Virus record (IMG/VR): IMGVR_UViG_3300022200_001528
Span: 1 to 29,416 of that record
Source: a virus
Reading direction: 5' to 3' (one strand)
DNA length: 29,416 nt
Part shown: positions 4,826-28,230 of the stretch, piece after piece
Layout of the letters: every line of letters begins with the position of its first letter
Numbering within the stretch: position 1 is the first letter of the stretch
The notes under the pieces: generated by a model
Databases searched by the model: none
Told to the model about the DNA's origin: nothing
What the model saw: only the letters and a program-made list of their open reading frames with translations
Translations under genes and position numbers: made by a program

Positions 4826-7800
4826 CGACTTAGATTTACTCCTGCTTCAGCTCCTAGTGGTTTTAGACCTATTCAGGTGAGCCAAGCAGAGATTACCCGA
4901 ATGCAACAAGAAAGCGATCGGGTTATCGCTAATATGCAGCGTAATCGTCAAGCTGAAATGCAGCAACGGCGTGAAATGCTGCAGACTATGAAAGAGGATG
5001 CGAATTACACACGTCAAGCCCAAGACCGTAACTTCCAAATCCAACAGCAGAACCTAAGGAATGAGCTACTTCAAAGTCAATTTGATGCTAGAACTGCTGA
5101 AGGACAGGCTGCAGAAAACCTTCAATCAGCTCAACAAATCTTTGGTGGTTTAGCTCAGTTTAGTCAAGCAGCCGCTGATATCACACAAAAGATTGAAGCC
5201 AAGCGGATTAAACGTGAAGAAGGTGATGCTCTACTTAAAGCAGTCCGTGGTGAGGATTTTGAAAGGGGATTAGCATTTAGAGAGGGAGAGTTAACACTAC
5301 TTGAAGGTCTTGAAAAATATAATTTAAATGTTAATATTCAGGAAGCTTCAGGATTAGATCCAGGCACAGTAGCTCAAGGAAGGCTTGCAAATCCTGGAAA
5401 CACTTACCTTGCAAATAGAAGTAATTCTACTTGGATACTTAAAAATCAATTTCCTTTGTTTCTTGACAGTATCTTAAATGATACTGAAACTCAATTTGAA
5501 TATAACGGTCAAATTGTAACACCTGCTGCAGCCCGTTCTAATCCAGAACTTATGCGAGATTTGTCTCAGTTTGCTGTGCGCCAGTTTACTGAGACAAAGG
5601 GGTTTTTAGGTCTTGATCCACTATTCTTGTTTGAAGGATTAAGGTATATTGATGAGCACAACAACACATTAATTAAAGGTGCTAGTGCTAATCGAATTAA
5701 GAATACCTATGCAATCCATAAAGATCAGCAAGATAGTATTGTACTAAATGATCCTGCTAGGTTTGAAGAGAATGCTCCAATTGCATTCAGAAACTTAGTA
5801 AATAATCCTTTGGTTGGTGCAGCAGGTGCTCATGAAGCACTTAAAGGTTGGGCTACTCATCAAAAACCTGATGGATCTTTCACTGTTCCTATCGAAGCTG
5901 TTAGGAATATGGTACTAAGACCTGATGGTAAAACCTACGATCAGGAGTGGCCTGGAAGGTGGTCTGAGATTATTGATGCACGTACTAATGCTGAGATGAG
6001 GTTTGCTCAGCGTGAAATGCAGATTGATAATATTTCTTTTGAACAAGATTCTCGTCGGATTCTTCAAGGTTTAACTGAGGATCCAACACAAGCAAATGCT
6101 GATGCTGCTATCAAATTCTTCCGTGAAACTCACGGTAAAGTCCCGCCTGAACTGCTTAAATTTGCTTCTAGCTACACCACTGAAGCAGTAGAGAAAATAG
6201 AATCAGCTAAACGGTTCCTTTCTATTCCTTCTGGTCTCATTACATTAGAAGCTGTAGAGGCTGCAGAATCTATTGACTATGATACTGGACGTGAACTCCG
6301 TAAGCGTTTTGCTGAGCAAGAGGCACAGTACAACTCTGGTATCTACAAAGAAACAGCTGAAGCCTTCAAGACCACAGCTAACGGTGTTACTGCATACGGT
6401 ACTAATAAACCAAACACACCAGCCAGTGTCTTTCTTCAGACTATGATGCGGTCTGAATTCCGTAAGCGTGTAGATAAAGCGGTTGCTGGTGGTATGGACT
6501 TTAACCAAGCTGCAACCGCTATTGGTCAACAGCTGGATGCTGAAGTAAAGGCTGGTTCTCGTGATCCTAATAGTCCTTGGTATCGTAAGGTAGATGCCCC
6601 TGGTGGTACTCCTACATTCCCTAACCTTAACAAAGGTATGATGACGGGTGTAGAGGCTGCTAACCGTCGTTATAATGAGCTTAAAAAGAACATTGCCACT
6701 CAAGGGTTGGCAAAAGTTATTGATACCAAAGACTCTATTATTACTGCACAAGAGGCACAGGAAATTGTAAAGGGTTATGGTCGTCCTGGATTCACTGTTC
6801 CTGCTGATGTACAAGCTGTAGCTGGTATGTCGAACGGATTGGATCCTATGGTGATTATTAATCGTCAGCTTGCTGCACAAGGTATGCAGCCGCTTGCACC
6901 TCCACCTTCAATGCAAACTACTAGTCAACTAATTAGCCCTGCCTTCCAGAAGCTTCTGTATAAAACTCCCAGTCTAAACCGTTCTGCACGTGCTCTTGGT
7001 ACGGCTAACACGTTTAATACAGCTATTATTCCTAACAACCTTGGTCCTATTATTCAACAGGCTGCACAAGCTAATGGTGTTAACCCTTCTTATATTGCAG
7101 CTTTGGCTGAGATTGAGAGTGGATTTAATCAAGGTAGTACTAGCTATAACGGCTCTTCCTTTGGTGTCATGCAGATTAGTCGAAAGGATCATCCTACTTT
7201 CTTTGCACAACAGAATTGGAGAGATCCTCAAGCTAATATCAATTACGGTGCTCAATACTATGCTGGTCTTTTGAAGAAGTACGGTGATCCTGTTAAAGCT
7301 GCTATGGCATATAATGCAGGTCCTGGTAACTACGATGCTTACCTACGTGGTGAGCTGCCTGATGGTCCGATAAAGACTGAGATGCTTAACCATGGTAAGA
7401 AGTTTGCCAAGGCTATGTATAAGTATGGCGGAGGCGCTCAAGCGTTAAATAACCCATCACTAATGAGAAGTGGATCACCTTTAGAAGTGTCTACTTTGAT
7501 GAGAACACCAGTACGTCCTCTACAATCATTTTCACCACAAGTATCTTCAATAACCTTTGATACAGGTCAACCTGGTATTGATGTTTTCTTTGAAGATAAA
7601 CAATTCCCAGCAGTTCTACCTGGTGTTGTAAAGGACATTAGTTTCCAAGGCGGTCAAGGTTCTGGATATGGGAATTATGTAGTTATCGAATCTATTGATC
7701 CTGATACTAATCAAAAGGTAGATGTTCTCTACTCTCATTTAGCTTCTAAACCAAATCTACAACCTGGGCAAATGATTAGGACAGGTCAAATTATCGGTCA

Positions 7801-19549: not shown

Positions 19550-20056
19550 ATGACCGCCCCAATCATCGTTACAGGGCCACAGAGAGCAGGCTCACGCATT
19601 GCTAGCCACATCCTTTGCTCTGACCTTGGCGGTGTGTTTGTTGATGAGCTTGAATACTGTCTTCCTTTACCGGATAACGCAGTTGTTCAAGCTCCTTTTC
19701 TTCTTAAGTCCGTTCTTGAGTTATCATTCATTCTCCCAACTGCTAAGTTTGTCTTTATGCATCGTAACCCTAAAGACATTGTAGCAAGTATGCAACGTGT
19801 TGAGTGGTACGCTGACTATTGTGATGATCCTGACTTCTACCCAGCTTATGTCAAACATTGTTATGACTACATCGACATGTTAAAGCAGACGCTAAAACCT
19901 GATCGGTGGTTTGACATTCAATATGAATCCTTAAAAGCTCATCACCTCTTTGTAGAGGATAGAACAGACTTTACAACTAAACAACACTTACCTGGTGTCC
20001 CTAACGGACCTAAAATTTGGAGAAACGATGAATACATTAGAACTCTTAAAGAGTGA
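19550..20056 (+). CDS. Compact sulfotransferase-like protein
   Basis: A 168-residue P-loop-type protein. The start, IIVTGPQRAGSRIASHIL (residues 5-22), resembles the 5'-phosphosulfate loop of PAPS-dependent sulfotransferases. FVFMHRNPKDIVASMQRVEW (about residues 68-87) is a close match to the 3'-phosphate-binding motif (R-NPKD--S). It would transfer sulfate from PAPS to an unknown acceptor such as a glycan, lipid or protein. It is shorter than typical family members (250-300), ending soon after the second motif (WFDIQYESLKAHH, then LPGVPNGPKIWR). The 3' end overlaps the large terminase start by 29 bases. It is an auxiliary gene not found in T7; a role in virion or host-surface modification is speculation. 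Confidence 0.72.
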   Translation: MTAPIIVTGPQRAGSRIASHILCSDLGGVFVDELEYCLPLPDNAVVQAPFLLKSVLELSFILPTAKFVFMHRNPKDIVASMQRVEWYADYCDDPDFYPAYVKHCYDYIDMLKQTLKPDRWFDIQYESLKAHHLFVEDRTDFTTKQHLPGVPNGPKIWRNDEYIRTLKE

Positions 20057-21755
20057 CTTTAAACTTTTTCTTCAAGCTCTTTGGAATCAGCTAGATCTAC
20101 CTAACCCAACCCGAGCACAATACGCTATTGCTGATTACCTACAATATGGTCCTAAGCGTCTACAGATTCAAGCATTTCGAGGGGTAGGTAAAAGTTGGAT
20201 TACTGGAGCGTTCGTTCTTTGGACGCTCTTTAAAGACAATGAGAAGAAGATTATGATTATCTCTGCTTCTAAGGAGCGTGCTGATAACATGTCTATCTTC
20301 CTTCAAAAGCTTATCATGGAGACACCTTGGTTACAGCATATGCAACCCGCTGATGACTCTGCTCGGTGGTCTAGGATTAGCTTTGATATTAAGTGTCCCC
20401 CTCACCAAGCTCCGTCAGTTAAGAGTGTTGGTATTACGGGTCAGCTAACGGGTTCACGTGCTGACCTTATGATCCTAGACGATATTGAGGTACCTGGTAA
20501 CTCCATGACAGAGTTCATGAGAGAAAAACTTCTACAGCTTTGTACTGAGGCAGAATCTATCCTTACTCCTAAACAAGACAGTAGGATTATGTACCTTGGT
20601 ACACCACAGACTACCTTTACCATTTATCGTAAGCTTGCTGAACGTAACTATAAGCCCTTTGTATGGCCAGCACGTTATCCCCGTAAGGTTAGCCAATACG
20701 AAGGACTACTTGCTCCTCAACTTGTTGAAGACATTGATAAAGGAGCTGAATCTTGGGGTGTAACTGACCCTGATCGTTTTGATAACGAAGACCTAGTTGA
20801 ACGTGAAGCCTCCATGGGTAGGAGTAATTTCATGCTCCAGTTCATGCTTGATACCTCCCTTAGCGATGCTGAAAAGTTTCCCCTTAAGTGCTCTGACCTC
20901 GTTATCACTAGCGTTAACCCTACTACTGCTCCCGAATCAGTCGTTTGGTGCTCAGATCCCCAAAACGTCATTAAAGACCTACCAACTGTCGGATTACCTG
21001 GAGATTATTTCTACTCTCCTATGCAGCTCCAAGGTGAATGGGATAGCTACCAAGAAACAATATGCTCAGTTGATCCATCGGGTAGAGGCTCAGATGAGAC
21101 AGCAGCAGCTTATATCTCCCAACGAAACGGTTTTCTGTACTTGCATGAAATGCGTGCTTATCGAGATGGATACAGTGACAACACGTTACTGGACATTCTA
21201 AAAGGTTGTAAGAAGTACGGTGTTACTAAACTAGTTATTGAAACTAACTTTGGTGATGGTATTGTTGCTGAATTATTCCGTAAACATCTTCTCCAAACTA
21301 AACAAGGTATTGACATTGAAGAAGTACGTGCAAATGTCCGTAAAGAAGACCGTATTATTGATACCCTTGAGCCTGTCTTTAATCAGCATAGGCTTATTGT
21401 TAATCGAAGTGTCATTGAATGGGACTTCAAATCAAACCCAGATGCAGCACCAGAAGAACGACTACTATACATGCTATTCTACCAAATGAGTAGGATGTGT
21501 CGTGAAAAGGGTGCGGTAAGACACGACGATAGACTAGACTGTCTTTCACAAGGTATTAAATACTTTACAGATGCTTTAGCTATCTCAGCCCAAGAAGCTG
21601 TTAAAGAACGTAAACGTGAAGAGTGGAACGACATGCTAGAAGCCTTTATGGACGACCCTCAAAGTGAGACAAACCATATAGTTTTAGGTATGTCTTTAGC
21701 TCAAAAAAGACAAGCTAGAGGGAGTGGTAAAAGCTCCCTTCCAACGTGGGTTTAA
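20028..21755 (+). CDS. Terminase large subunit (gp19-like)
   Basis: Packaging motor ATPase and nuclease that cuts the concatemer at the genome ends. I choose ATG 20028, preceded by GGAG at 20019-20022, over a GTG 33 bases upstream; this gives 575 residues, close to T7 gp19 (586). The Walker A segment is AFRGVGKSW (residues 49-57), Walker B LMILDD (147-152), and the nuclease domain starts with VDPSGRGSDETAA (Asp349). A later acidic cluster, VRHDDRLDCLSQGIKYF, supplies further metal ligands. The 5' end lies inside the sulfotransferase-like gene. No gene follows for about 250 bases, and the spacer there is rich in hairpins, as expected near the end of the late operon or the physical genome end. 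Confidence 0.95.
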   Translation: MNTLELLKSDFKLFLQALWNQLDLPNPTRAQYAIADYLQYGPKRLQIQAFRGVGKSWITGAFVLWTLFKDNEKKIMIISASKERADNMSIFLQKLIMETPWLQHMQPADDSARWSRISFDIKCPPHQAPSVKSVGITGQLTGSRADLMILDDIEVPGNSMTEFMREKLLQLCTEAESILTPKQDSRIMYLGTPQTTFTIYRKLAERNYKPFVWPARYPRKVSQYEGLLAPQLVEDIDKGAESWGVTDPDRFDNEDLVEREASMGRSNFMLQFMLDTSLSDAEKFPLKCSDLVITSVNPTTAPESVVWCSDPQNVIKDLPTVGLPGDYFYSPMQLQGEWDSYQETICSVDPSGRGSDETAAAYISQRNGFLYLHEMRAYRDGYSDNTLLDILKGCKKYGVTKLVIETNFGDGIVAELFRKHLLQTKQGIDIEEVRANVRKEDRIIDTLEPVFNQHRLIVNRSVIEWDFKSNPDAAPEERLLYMLFYQMSRMCREKGAVRHDDRLDCLSQGIKYFTDALAISAQEAVKERKREEWNDMLEAFMDDPQSETNHIVLGMSLAQKRQARGSGKSSLPTWV

Positions 21756-21800: not shown

Positions 21801-21831
21801 GAACAAGGCGGATGTATAACGGGGGGGAGAA
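21801..21831 (+). repeat. Near copy of RNA polymerase gene segment 26701-26729
   Basis: GAACAAGGCGGATGTATA, then AC and GGGGGGGAGAA, aligns with GGACAGGGCGGATGTATA, then CA and GGGGGAGAA, in the same orientation. About 25 of 29 aligned bases agree, including a 12-base exact core GGCGGATGTATA, with two extra G here. The reading frame of the polymerase is not preserved. Confidence 0.6.
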
Positions 21832-21884
21832 GGGTGGACTCCCCTCCGGGAAAGGGGGAATTCGAGACAAGCTCTCATTCCCCT
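21821..21884 (+). terminator. Two back-to-back G/C-rich hairpins, possible late terminator
   Basis: Hairpin 1: GGGGGGGAG (21821-21829) with CTCCCCTCC (21839-21847), nine pairs including one wobble. Hairpin 2: GGGGAAT (21855-21861) with ATTCCCC (21877-21883), plus an inner GAG/CTC, followed by TCTTT. The short T-run makes the second a weak intrinsic terminator; both could also mark the packaging end. Confidence 0.5.
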
Positions 21885-22001
21885 CTTTACTAAAGACTAC
21901 TGGATAGAGAACATCTTATTCTACTTATTCACTCCCCCCTTTTGAATCTTGTGAATATTAGAACACTTATCCTACTGTATGGACTAACGTATTAAGAATT
22001 A

Positions 22002-22649
22002 ATGACCTTCACCCACACCGCCCAACTCCTACACATTACTCCAGACGCTGAAGATCTTATTAGTTACATGGCTAGGGTATCTAATCCCTCTAACCAGTCA
22101 AACACTGAGACCAGTGCTAAACTAATTAAGTACCTAATTAAACATAACCATTGGTCACCTTTTGAAATGGTGAACATGTGTGTAAGTATAGAGACAACTA
22201 GAAGTATTGCTGCTCAAATACTTCGTCACCGTTCTTTCTCCTTCCAAGAGTTTAGTCAAAGGTACGCTAAGGTGGAGAAACAAGCCGCTATCCCCCAACT
22301 GCGTAGACAAGATCAAAAGAATAGACAGAACTCTATTGATGATCTAGATGAAGTATTAAAGAAACACTTCCAGTTCCGTATAGGTTCACTCTACTCCGAC
22401 TGCTATGGACTGTATAAAGAACTAGTTGAAGCGGGTGTAGCTAAAGAGTGTGCTCGTGAAGTACTTCCAATGGCAGCTCCAACTAAACTATACATGAATG
22501 GTTCCATTAGATCTTGGTTACACTACTGTGACCTTCGTACATCTAACGGTACCCAGCGGGAACACGCTCAAATAGCAGCTCAAATACAAGATATCCTCTA
22601 CCAATACCTTCCTAACACTTGTGAGGCAATGTGGTCGAAAGAAAGTTAA
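22002..22649 (+). CDS. thyX: FAD-dependent thymidylate synthase ThyX
   Basis: Makes dTMP from dUMP with methylenetetrahydrofolate, FAD and NADPH, supplying thymidine for phage DNA synthesis. The diagnostic motif RHRSFS (residues 75-80, within ILRHRSFSFQEFSQRYAKV) is intact. The C-terminal segment GSIRSWLHYCDLRTSNGTQ matches the dUMP-binding end of the family. At 215 residues the length is normal. ThyX is a well-known auxiliary gene of cyanophages and other aquatic podoviruses. It is the first gene after the hairpin spacer, which places it at the right end after the terminase or at the left end before the polymerase. The ATG follows an AT-rich leader without a Shine-Dalgarno site. Confidence 0.96.
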   Translation: MTFTHTAQLLHITPDAEDLISYMARVSNPSNQSNTETSAKLIKYLIKHNHWSPFEMVNMCVSIETTRSIAAQILRHRSFSFQEFSQRYAKVEKQAAIPQLRRQDQKNRQNSIDDLDEVLKKHFQFRIGSLYSDCYGLYKELVEAGVAKECAREVLPMAAPTKLYMNGSIRSWLHYCDLRTSNGTQREHAQIAAQIQDILYQYLPNTCEAMWSKES

Positions 22650-23218: not shown

Positions 23219-23297
23219 CAAAAATTTGTCTAACCATATATCATATAAGCAACCCTGATCATTCCCCCATAGGGGGTATCACCATCCCTTATCAATG

Positions 23298-23401
23298 CCG
23301 CTCCGCACTTCGTGCTCCGCTTCCTTTACCACGTGCTTGAGAATGATTATCACTGCACAACACTGATGAGCAAGGGGAGCGGAGCGCGTAGCGCGGAGCG
23401 G
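23298..23401. repeat. Long GC-rich inverted repeat with four GCGGAGC/GCTCCGC units
   Basis: Arms 23298-23325 and 23374-23401 pair over 28 positions: 23 Watson-Crick pairs, three G-T wobbles and two mismatches, with a 48-base loop. GCTCCGC occurs at 23300 and 23314 and its complement GCGGAGC at 23379 and 23393, both spaced 14 bases apart. The G+C content is far above the phage average. As DNA it could extrude a cruciform; as RNA it would be a very stable hairpin. Confidence 0.8.
23338..23352. promoter_or_regulatory. Fur/Zur-family operator-like box TGAGAATGATTATCA
   Basis: Matches the 7-1-7 Fur-family consensus TGATAATnATTATCA at 13 of the 14 defined positions. A weaker second box (CGGGAATGATTCTCA, 23399-23413; 10 of 14) lies 61 bases downstream. 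TTTACC (23325-23330) and TATCAC (23348-23353), 17 bases apart, could form a weak promoter overlapped by the box. Protein binding is inferred from the motif alone. Confidence 0.5.
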
Positions 23402-23432
23402 GAATGATTCTCAATGTGAGTAAGTGTTAGCG

Positions 23433-23557: not shown

Positions 23558-23586
23558 TTGACAAGCGGTTGAGTCGGTGCTATACT
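23558..23586 (+). promoter_or_regulatory. Consensus sigma70 early promoter
   Basis: TTGACA (23558-23563), a 17-base spacer and TATACT (23581-23586) with an extended -10 TGC in front: nearly ideal for bacterial housekeeping RNA polymerase. It points into the early gene cluster, as host-driven promoters do in T7-like phages. ACTAC-GTAT-GTAGT (23584-23597) overlaps the -10 and start region and could be an operator. Confidence 0.85.
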
Positions 23587-25913: not shown

Positions 25914-28230
25914 AACACAGATAGCCTTTGAACGGGAGGCAATTGCACACGGTTTAAGCAGGCTATATAAGAACACACAAGAATTAGAAGATAAGTCTTA
26001 TGCGTCTGCTAGTGTGTATGGTGTGGCATCTATTGATTCACTCCTCCCTATACTTATCAAATACATTGAAGACACTACACATGACAGGTTGACACGTGGC
26101 AGAGGCTATCAATTCCAACTTATCAAAACTTATGTATCTAAACTAGAAGTATTAGCATCTGCTACTATTGCACTTAAGGTAACCTTTGATAAAGTATTCT
26201 CATACAAAGACAAAGCTAACCAAGCTGTTAATGTGCTTGATGCTATAGGTCGTGCTATTGAAGATGAGTGTCAGATGAGACACTATGAGGAGAAAGCACC
26301 TGGTCTATTAGAAACTTTAAAGAAGAACTATTGGCACAAGTCGATTGGTACTCAGCAAAAGCTGACTGTCATTCGCACTATGATGAACCGTCACAACATT
26401 GAGAAATGGCATACATGGGGAAGAGACAATCGAGTTAAACTCGGTGGTTGGCTCCTTGATTGTATCATGGAATCTAGTGGCTGGTTTGAGAAGCTAGTGA
26501 TACAGGAGCGTTCTAAGCGAGTTCAGTATGTTGTCCCTACTGCAAAGTTCATGGACATCAAAGATGAACTGATGAAGAATGCTGAACTATTTAGTCCTCT
26601 TGCATGGCCAATGCTTATCCCTCCAAATGATTGGACAGAGGACAAAGCTGGTGGCTACCTCCTAAACGAAGTGATGAGGGGGCATGACATGGTTCGTAGG
26701 GGACAGGGCGGATGTATACAGGGGGAGAAACCAATCCAGTTTCTGAACAAGATTCAAAAGGTTTCTTACTGCCTGAATCCCTTCATCGTAGAGGTAGCAG
26801 AGAAGTTAGATCAATTAGAAAGACCAGTAGGTAAGTTCCTTCCTATTGTTCATTATGATCTACCTACTAAACCTGTAGACATTGCAGAGAATGCAGAAGC
26901 AAGGAAGAGTTACAGGAGAGAGGCAGCTGAAGTTCTAAATAGACAAGCTCACGAGTTTAGGAAGTCTTGTAGAACTAGAATGACTTTAGAGGCAGTTAAA
27001 AGGTTTAAGGATAAAGAGAAGTTTTACGTACCCTGGTCTTTTGACTATAGAGGTAGAGCGTATCCTATACCTGCTTTCTTAACACCTCAAGACACAGACT
27101 TTGGAAAAAGTTTATTGAGGTCTTATGAAGAGTCATTCATGACACCTGAAGCTGAAGAGTGGTTAGCATTTCAGGTAGCTACTACATTCGGTCTTGATAA
27201 GGCAACGATGCAAGAGCGTTTGCAGTGGGTACAAGATAATACCACATTCATCAAAGCTATTGCTTTAGATCCTATTGAGCGACTTCCTGATTGGGAGTCA
27301 GCTGATGAACCTTGGCAATTCCTTGCAGCTTGTGAAGAGTACTATGCTTGTGTCTTAGCTTGTACTCGGTCTCACACAGGTTTGTTTGTTGCTACAGATG
27401 CTACTTGCAGTGGTCTTCAGATCCTTGCTGGTTTAGCCCGTGATAAGTCTACAGCGCAGCTTGTTAACGTCCTACCTGGTAATAAGCCACAGGATGCTTA
27501 CAAGGTTGTTGCTGAGGCAGCTACACCTTACTGTCCTGCTTCTATTCGCCCTTACATGGACAGAAAGACGGTCAAACGTGTAGTTATGACCGTGCCTTAC
27601 AATGCTAAGCCGTACTCCAATCGTGGGTATATCAAGGACGCACTCAAGGAGAAAGGGGTAGAGATCGACAAAGATGATCTCACCAAGACTGTTAAGGCAG
27701 TCAGAGATGCTATGGATGTCGTTGTACCTGGTCCTATGGCAGTAATGTCTTGGATTGAGCAAGAGGTATCCAAAGCTATTGACAGAGGGGAGACACAGCT
27801 AACATGGACTACACCATCAGGCTTTGTCGTCACTCAACGTTTGATGAAGAAAGAGAAGGTGACTGTTAAACTACAGTTGCTTGGTCGTTGTGAGTTAGAG
27901 GTCGCTGTTGATGACAGCAAGAAGGTAGACAAGCAGCATCACAAGAATGCTACTGCTCCTAACCTTATTCACTCACTTGACGCTAGCCTGCTACACCTGG
28001 CTACACTGAGGTTTAACGCACCTATTGCTCTCATCCACGATTCTGTATTGTGTCGTGCTACAGACATGTCGGTACTCAGCACCATTGTGCGAGAGACTTA
28101 CATGCACCTGTTTGCAGAGCATGATTACCTAACTGACTTTGCCCAACAGATTGAGGCAGAGACTGACCCACCGATCATCGGAGATCTGGAACCAGAGTCC
28201 GTGATTGATTCCACTTACTTTTTTTGTTAA
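25891..28230 (+). CDS. Single-subunit phage RNA polymerase (T7 gp1-like)
   Basis: Transcribes middle and late phage genes. All catalytic motifs of the T7 family are present: FDYRGRAYPIPAF (about residue 384), motif A ATDATCSGLQ with Asp503, motif B KTVKRVVMTVPYNAK with Lys562, Arg563 and Tyr570 (matching T7 Lys631, Arg632, Tyr639), and motif C LIHDSVL with His716 and Asp717. The 779-residue length is typical of cyanophage polymerases and about 100 shorter than T7 (883). It ends in an aromatic foot (YFFC) like the T7 FAFA end. The likely start is TTG. A 29-base stretch at 26701-26729 has a near copy in the spacer after the terminase. The stop overlaps the next start as TAATG. Confidence 0.97.
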   Translation: MITQAEIETQIAFEREAIAHGLSRLYKNTQELEDKSYASASVYGVASIDSLLPILIKYIEDTTHDRLTRGRGYQFQLIKTYVSKLEVLASATIALKVTFDKVFSYKDKANQAVNVLDAIGRAIEDECQMRHYEEKAPGLLETLKKNYWHKSIGTQQKLTVIRTMMNRHNIEKWHTWGRDNRVKLGGWLLDCIMESSGWFEKLVIQERSKRVQYVVPTAKFMDIKDELMKNAELFSPLAWPMLIPPNDWTEDKAGGYLLNEVMRGHDMVRRGQGGCIQGEKPIQFLNKIQKVSYCLNPFIVEVAEKLDQLERPVGKFLPIVHYDLPTKPVDIAENAEARKSYRREAAEVLNRQAHEFRKSCRTRMTLEAVKRFKDKEKFYVPWSFDYRGRAYPIPAFLTPQDTDFGKSLLRSYEESFMTPEAEEWLAFQVATTFGLDKATMQERLQWVQDNTTFIKAIALDPIERLPDWESADEPWQFLAACEEYYACVLACTRSHTGLFVATDATCSGLQILAGLARDKSTAQLVNVLPGNKPQDAYKVVAEAATPYCPASIRPYMDRKTVKRVVMTVPYNAKPYSNRGYIKDALKEKGVEIDKDDLTKTVKAVRDAMDVVVPGPMAVMSWIEQEVSKAIDRGETQLTWTTPSGFVVTQRLMKKEKVTVKLQLLGRCELEVAVDDSKKVDKQHHKNATAPNLIHSLDASLLHLATLRFNAPIALIHDSVLCRATDMSVLSTIVRETYMHLFAEHDYLTDFAQQIEAETDPPIIGDLEPESVIDSTYFFC

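Follow-up and report, generated by a model that had tools for sequence, protein, structure and literature searches.

The stretch at 21801-21831 of the window and a similar stretch inside the RNA polymerase gene are very probably the only two cognate promoters of the phage's own single-subunit, T7-type RNA polymerase, as predicted from comparative sequence analysis. The window is the whole stretch of DNA that was analyzed, 29,416 nucleotides long. It is a 29-kb fragment of a T7-like cyanophage; among named phages, Synechococcus phages such as S-RIP1, DSL-LC07, S-CBP1, S-CBP3 and S-CBP4 are closest to it. The first site lies in the spacer between the genes for the terminase large subunit and thymidylate synthase, 47 nt past the terminase stop; the polymerase is a T7-type single-subunit enzyme. 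The coordinates are collected in Table 1.

The pairing of the sites, their presence in two copies only, their homologous positions, the codon constraint, the covariation of residues with bases and the conserved hairpin were computed here. Promoter activity has been established experimentally by others, for Syn5 only. Activity of the sites in this phage, their start points and the order in which genes are transcribed are inferences, as would be any part played by the right-end copy in packaging or replication. An AlphaFold2 model of the polymerase, with a mean pLDDT of 55.6, was left out of the analysis.

Table 1. Promoter sites, RNA elements and genes of the window.
Feature	Position	Strand	Basis
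Predicted right-end promoter of the phage RNA polymerase, ACAAGGCGGATGTATA, about -16 to -1	21803..21818	+	1/16 mismatch to the internal copy; paired in relatives; homologous place in Syn5
Expected start, right-end promoter	21819 (+/-2)	+	
Predicted RNAP-internal promoter, ACAGGGCGGATGTATA, within RNA polymerase codons 271-276	26703..26718	+	Frozen codons; homologous to the promoter in the Syn5 RNAP gene
Expected start, RNAP-internal promoter	26719 (+/-2)	+	
Hairpin at the extreme 5' end of the expected transcript, CGGGGGGGAG / loop AAGGGUGGA / CUCCCCUCCG	21820..21848	+	Fold; relatives
Second hairpin (stem 21855-21883), then a short T-rich stretch, terminator-like	21855..21888	+	Fold; relatives, by a lenient criterion
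Phage single-subunit RNA polymerase gene, T7 gp1 family, 779 aa	25891..28230	+	phmmer to T7 RNAP, E 1e-59
Polymerase AT-rich recognition loop, residues 66-73; R69 = T7 R96	26086..26109	+	Alignment to T7; covariation with -16
Polymerase specificity loop, residues 658-670; K660, R666, E668, E670 = T7 748, 754, 756, 758	27862..27900	+	Alignment to T7; covariation with -11, -10, -9, -8
Terminase large subunit gene	19995..21755	+	
thyX-type thymidylate synthase gene, downstream of the right-end promoter	22002..22649	+	

Two similar sites and their counterparts in relatives

The exact 12-mer GGCGGATGTATA occurs at 21807-21818 and at 26707-26718, and a search of the window found no third place for it, even when one mismatch was allowed. 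The gapped alignment of the two sites (ACAAGGCGGATGTATAACGGGGGGGAGAA against ACAGGGCGGATGTAT-AC-AGGGGGAGAA) has 25 identities in 29 positions with two one-base gaps, in agreement with the 25 of 29 bases and the exact 12-base core reported in the sequence-only reading of this DNA. Without gaps, 21801-21829 matches the site in the polymerase gene at 23 of 29 positions. Over 16 positions the two copies differ by a single mismatch, and the next best place in the window has four.

The same reading considered such a similarity to have a small chance of arising in a 29-kb window, which is incorrect. The pair scores 18 and ranks about 13th when the window is compared with itself, and every one of ten dinucleotide-preserving shuffles of the window contained between 2 and 12 pairs that were as good or better. 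The similarity is therefore at chance level, and not significant, when the window is considered alone. That the pair is nonetheless not accidental is established by the relatives, because the sites match within each relative genome while differing between genomes.

The relatives comprised 80 viral contigs collected via thymidylate synthase and 80 via the polymerase, plus complete cyanophage genomes; several of them, like the window, are genome fragments. In genomes that contain both regions, the spacer site equals the genome's own polymerase-internal site, situated at about codon 271, and the sequence of the site differs from one genome to another (for example, ACATGACTGCCGTATA in contig L023, ACATCACCCATGTA in contig L047, TAACCACGGGTGTATACAGG in S-CBP4 and AACCCCTACGTATACAGGGG in P-SSP7). 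A lack of such similarity in relatives would have counted against the sequence-only reading; the relatives show the opposite. Among 39 distinct site pairs, the mean best match was 16.7/18 within a genome and 13.2/18 between genomes, 37 of the pairs scored at least 15/18, and none of 5000 permutations reached the observed sum of site matches. At most positions from -16 to -4, the two copies of a genome are identical in 18-24 of 24 pairs, compared with 34-77% agreement between genomes. Only position -14 is loose, and it is here that the window's own two copies differ. The sites are poorly matched in two of the 39 relatives. One of these, contig L061, has a decayed internal site. The other, L096, has two sites of different classes, with a polymerase of the GGCGGATG promoter class and a right-end site of the TCCCACAT class; it is possibly a recombinant or a chimeric contig.

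Six complete genomes were scanned, and so was the window, which is part of a larger genome: each contains exactly two copies with at most 2/16 mismatches, and no other place has fewer than four. When the whole RNAP gene was compared, without guidance, with the 400 nt that follow terL, the match fell on the homologous codon in 11 of the 12 complete genomes. This was so even for P60, SS120-1, S-TIP28 and P-SCSP-R27W, whose RNAPs are only 35-50% identical and whose sites all matched at 20/20. In the twelfth genome, S-CBP42, about 25 nt at the homologous RNAP place recur without a mismatch close to terL. Its terminase end was probably misplaced by the search, as the hit was short and the gene is not annotated.

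The internal site leaves a trace in the polymerase gene itself. Codon 276 (Ile) is ATA in 79/79 relatives and codon 277 (Gln) is CAG in 80/81. Among 402 conserved degenerate columns in 81 distinct polymerases, these two codons, both situated within the promoter site, rank first and fifth for codon freezing. The site constrains synonymous codons of the polymerase gene at the DNA level. The sequence-only reading had presented the spacer site as a copied segment of the polymerase gene, which is misleading: the internal site overlaps the coding sequence by happenstance, there is no copied piece of the gene in the spacer, and both places hold the same predicted promoter.

Two further features of the window were observed upstream of its early genes. 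A near-consensus sigma-70 promoter (TTGACA-17-TATACT, with TG before the -10 element) is situated at 23558-23586, upstream of the early genes, and is likely to be an early promoter of the host polymerase. Just upstream of it, between the late and early gene blocks, there is a large imperfect palindrome at 23291-23408 (90/123 positions).

Covariation of promoter bases with polymerase residues

In T7 RNA polymerase, N748, R756 and Q758 read promoter bases -10/-11, -9 and -8, respectively, as found from structures of promoter complexes and from specificity mutants. The promoter numbering used here equals that of T7 if the start follows GTATA. Covariation was assessed by plain mutual information and then by a tree-based branch test, for which the loops and the site were excluded from tree building. 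Of 27 changes at base -9, 22 share a branch with a change at residue 668 (T7 756) (p 8e-16); for base -16 and residue 69 (T7 96) the count is 19 of 23 (4e-17). The shared changes number 8/10 for base -10 and residue 666 (T7 754), 13/19 for base -11 and residue 660 (T7 748), and 11/20 for base -8 and residue 670 (T7 758). When the 1764 base-column tests are ranked, the top 16 all belong to the specificity loop or to the AT-rich loop with its immediate flank (columns 64-76). Columns 114, 117, 178, 205 and 210 had high plain mutual information with offsets -2/-3 and were dropped, these offsets having few states and little variation. The promoter bases thus match residues 748, 756 and 758 and the loop 93-101 in the T7 register, as in T7-type recognition.

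The correspondence can be written as a code. At -9, G goes with Glu, A with Lys, T with Gln and C with Arg; at -11, G goes with Lys, C with Glu or Asp, and A with Asn or Gln; at -10, C goes with Arg and G mostly with Asp; and at -16, A goes with Arg, C with Glu and T with Lys. Leave-one-out prediction from a single residue gave the correct base at -16, -11 and -9 in 76, 75 and 73 of 80 polymerases, respectively (baselines 28, 47 and 34). The 80 polymerases have 40 promoter haplotypes, which require 53 parsimony changes, showing that specificity has switched repeatedly.

These results bear on three other explanations of the pair. Chance similarity, assisted by the run of Gs, is favored by the equally good pairs found in every shuffle of the window, but its probability is negligible given the matched yet sequence-diverse pairs at homologous places, the outcome of the permutations and the restriction to exactly two copies per genome. 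The sites might instead be DNA targets shared by the terminase, for packaging or concatemer cleavage, or by a homing endonuclease. One copy does adjoin the terminase gene, near the expected genome end, and the window encodes both an HNH and a GIY-YIG nuclease. Against this, the bases co-vary, in the T7 register, with the polymerase residues that contact the promoter. Moreover, the experimentally mapped ends of P-SSP7 are more than 1 kb from its right-end site (site at 43818, end of the record at 45176), and the Syn5 sites are known promoters, making a nuclease or terminase site very improbable.

An equally improbable explanation is that the pair is a recombination scar or a duplicated segment of the RNAP gene, the copies being kept alike by gene conversion without promoter function. 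The near-identity of the copies within genomes would fit such a process. However, the identity ends at about 18-20 nt, which is too short for gene conversion alone, and the frozen codons and the residue-base code require a polymerase that reads the DNA. The sequence-only reading had listed these recognition sites, a site for the phage polymerase itself and the scar as candidates. Of these, the phage polymerase is now strongly supported by the paired sites, the codons, the covariation and the Syn5 precedent; a nuclease or terminase site or a scar is not needed.

The expected right-end transcript

The RNA expected from the right-end promoter begins with a hairpin. In the MFE fold, GGGUGGA is in the hairpin loop of 73/73 distinct relative elements, the stem sequences differing, and by a lenient rule a second hairpin adjoins a T-run in 67/73. 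The second hairpin of the window is a weak terminator-like element; a strict scan for terminators in the window did not pick up 21855-21883. A search of Rfam at gathering thresholds gave no match. A pseudoknot, CCACCC-GGGUGG, between the hairpin and an upstream partner was rejected, as that partner is not conserved from genome to genome; the variable bases upstream of the hairpin turned out to be the promoter.

Other hairpins were observed in this region. Where the window has its first hairpin, Syn5, P60, SS120-1, S-TIP28 and P-SCSP-R27W carry another conserved one, GAGTGGTGC...TGTGTGGA or near variants. This second type of right-end hairpin, also seen as GAGTGGTGC...TGTGTGGATTGCGGTGA and near variants, belongs to the Syn5/P60 branch (L094 at 44797-44850; L176, L177, L179 and L180 after terL). 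Between terL and thyX, 3' of the second hairpin, there are more conserved hairpins, such as AATGTCC..GGACATTCTGTAAGTACT (for example in L003, L017 and L060). The spacers of L007, L081, L082 and L087 form a group without the GGGTGGA loop, and the right-end site of this group (CCGACACTATAA..GGGAG in L081 and L082) bears a striking resemblance to the T7 promoter core.

The right-end RNA is possibly a short structured RNA, or else a terminator combined with a packaging role, as at the T7 right end. A more specific proposal is offered tentatively and is rather less likely than its alternatives: the right-end promoter would serve a dedicated short structured RNA, with the near-invariant loop AAGGGUGGA, a variable stem and a terminator-like hairpin about 35 nt further on. 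Made at the genome end, this small RNA might have a function in packaging, in concatemer processing or in replication. The polymerase, the RNA start and the internal promoter would then form a single evolving unit, with an amino-acid/base code that can be read.

With the two sites taken as cognate promoters, the following order of events may be envisaged. The host polymerase would act first, on the early genes and the phage polymerase gene, probably from the strong sigma-70-like promoter at 23558-23586. The phage polymerase would then bind the 16-bp site in its own gene (26703-26718) and transcribe everything downstream. The internal promoter alone yields no full-length polymerase mRNA, because its start falls inside the gene. 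The polymerase would also bind 21803-21818, just after the terminase, giving a transcript whose first 30 nt or so would fold into the conserved hairpin and be followed by the terminator-like one. Recognition would reuse the T7 contacts, the specificity-loop residues reading -11 to -8 and the AT-rich loop reading about -16 and -13. The polymerase and both sites would have switched specificity jointly many times, with just two promoters needing to change.

Comparison with known systems

The original paper on the Syn5 promoter (JBC 2013) reportedly describes the promoter at the right end of Syn5; the positions of the sites were checked here in the Syn5 genome. The pair in the window represents the Syn5-type layout, which is already known; the family-wide rule and the recognition code look new. 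No statement of the two-site rule for other cyanophages was found in the literature searched, which included few subscription papers, so that an earlier mention is possible.

Promoters of marine phage polymerases are hard to find, and the two-site rule can be applied to more than 100 polymerases at once. A screen published in 2024 (PMC11475235) used PHIRE/PhagePromoter predictions, among them AAAATTCTTCAAGTTTACAA for P-SSP7 and CACTTCCACTCAACCAACCG for S-CBP42. In that screen 18/26 polymerases were inactive, including all with low identity to T7 in the DNA-binding domain, and its authors attributed the inactivity to promoter prediction (PMC11475235). The two-site rule gives other promoters, AACCCCTACGTATA for P-SSP7 (at 6851 and 43818) and CTGGCCCATGTAAGCAGG for S-CBP42. 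Judged from these sequences, the promoters used in the screen for the two phages were apparently wrong. From dozens of independent specificity switches, the rule yields a natural recognition code for T7-type polymerases, and it suggests why the phages are able to switch: just two promoters must follow. The rule also points to a polymerase gene with a predicted promoter for its own product in the coding sequence, resulting in frozen codons and a variable peptide.

The closest known system is Syn5, whose RNA polymerase has an experimentally known 15-bp promoter, ATTGGGCACCCGTAA, present only twice in the genome, once in the RNAP gene (PMC3950665; Zhu et al. 2013). In the Syn5 genome, ATTGGGCACCCGTAA was found at 4929, at the homologous codon of the polymerase gene, and at 44797, 6 nt past the terminase stop. 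Syn5 and the window have in common exactly two promoters (predicted ones in the window), one at the homologous RNAP codon and one just after terL, a polymerase of the 779-aa type, and a right-end copy followed by a hairpin. The promoters are of different sequence classes, ATTGGGCACCCGTAA in Syn5 and ACAGGGCGGATGTATA in the window, the latter with a T7-like TATA before the start, and the loops of the right-end hairpins differ.

With T7, the window shares the polymerase family, the contact residues and their register (748, 756, 758 and the AT-rich loop), the TATA before +1, the G-rich start and a promoter, here a predicted one, near the right genome end. The right-end site of the window is the counterpart of T7 phiOR and of the Syn5 right-end promoter. 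However, the promoters of T7 are numerous and all lie outside gene 1, and the window sites, which read GGCGGATGTATA, do not conform to the T7 class III consensus TAATACGACTCACTATAGGGAGA, having in common with it only TATA and the G-rich start. The KP34 RNAP (PMC6834552) is likewise a phage single-subunit enzyme with few promoters, but it reads two unrelated promoter sequences, whereas the sites in the window share one sequence.
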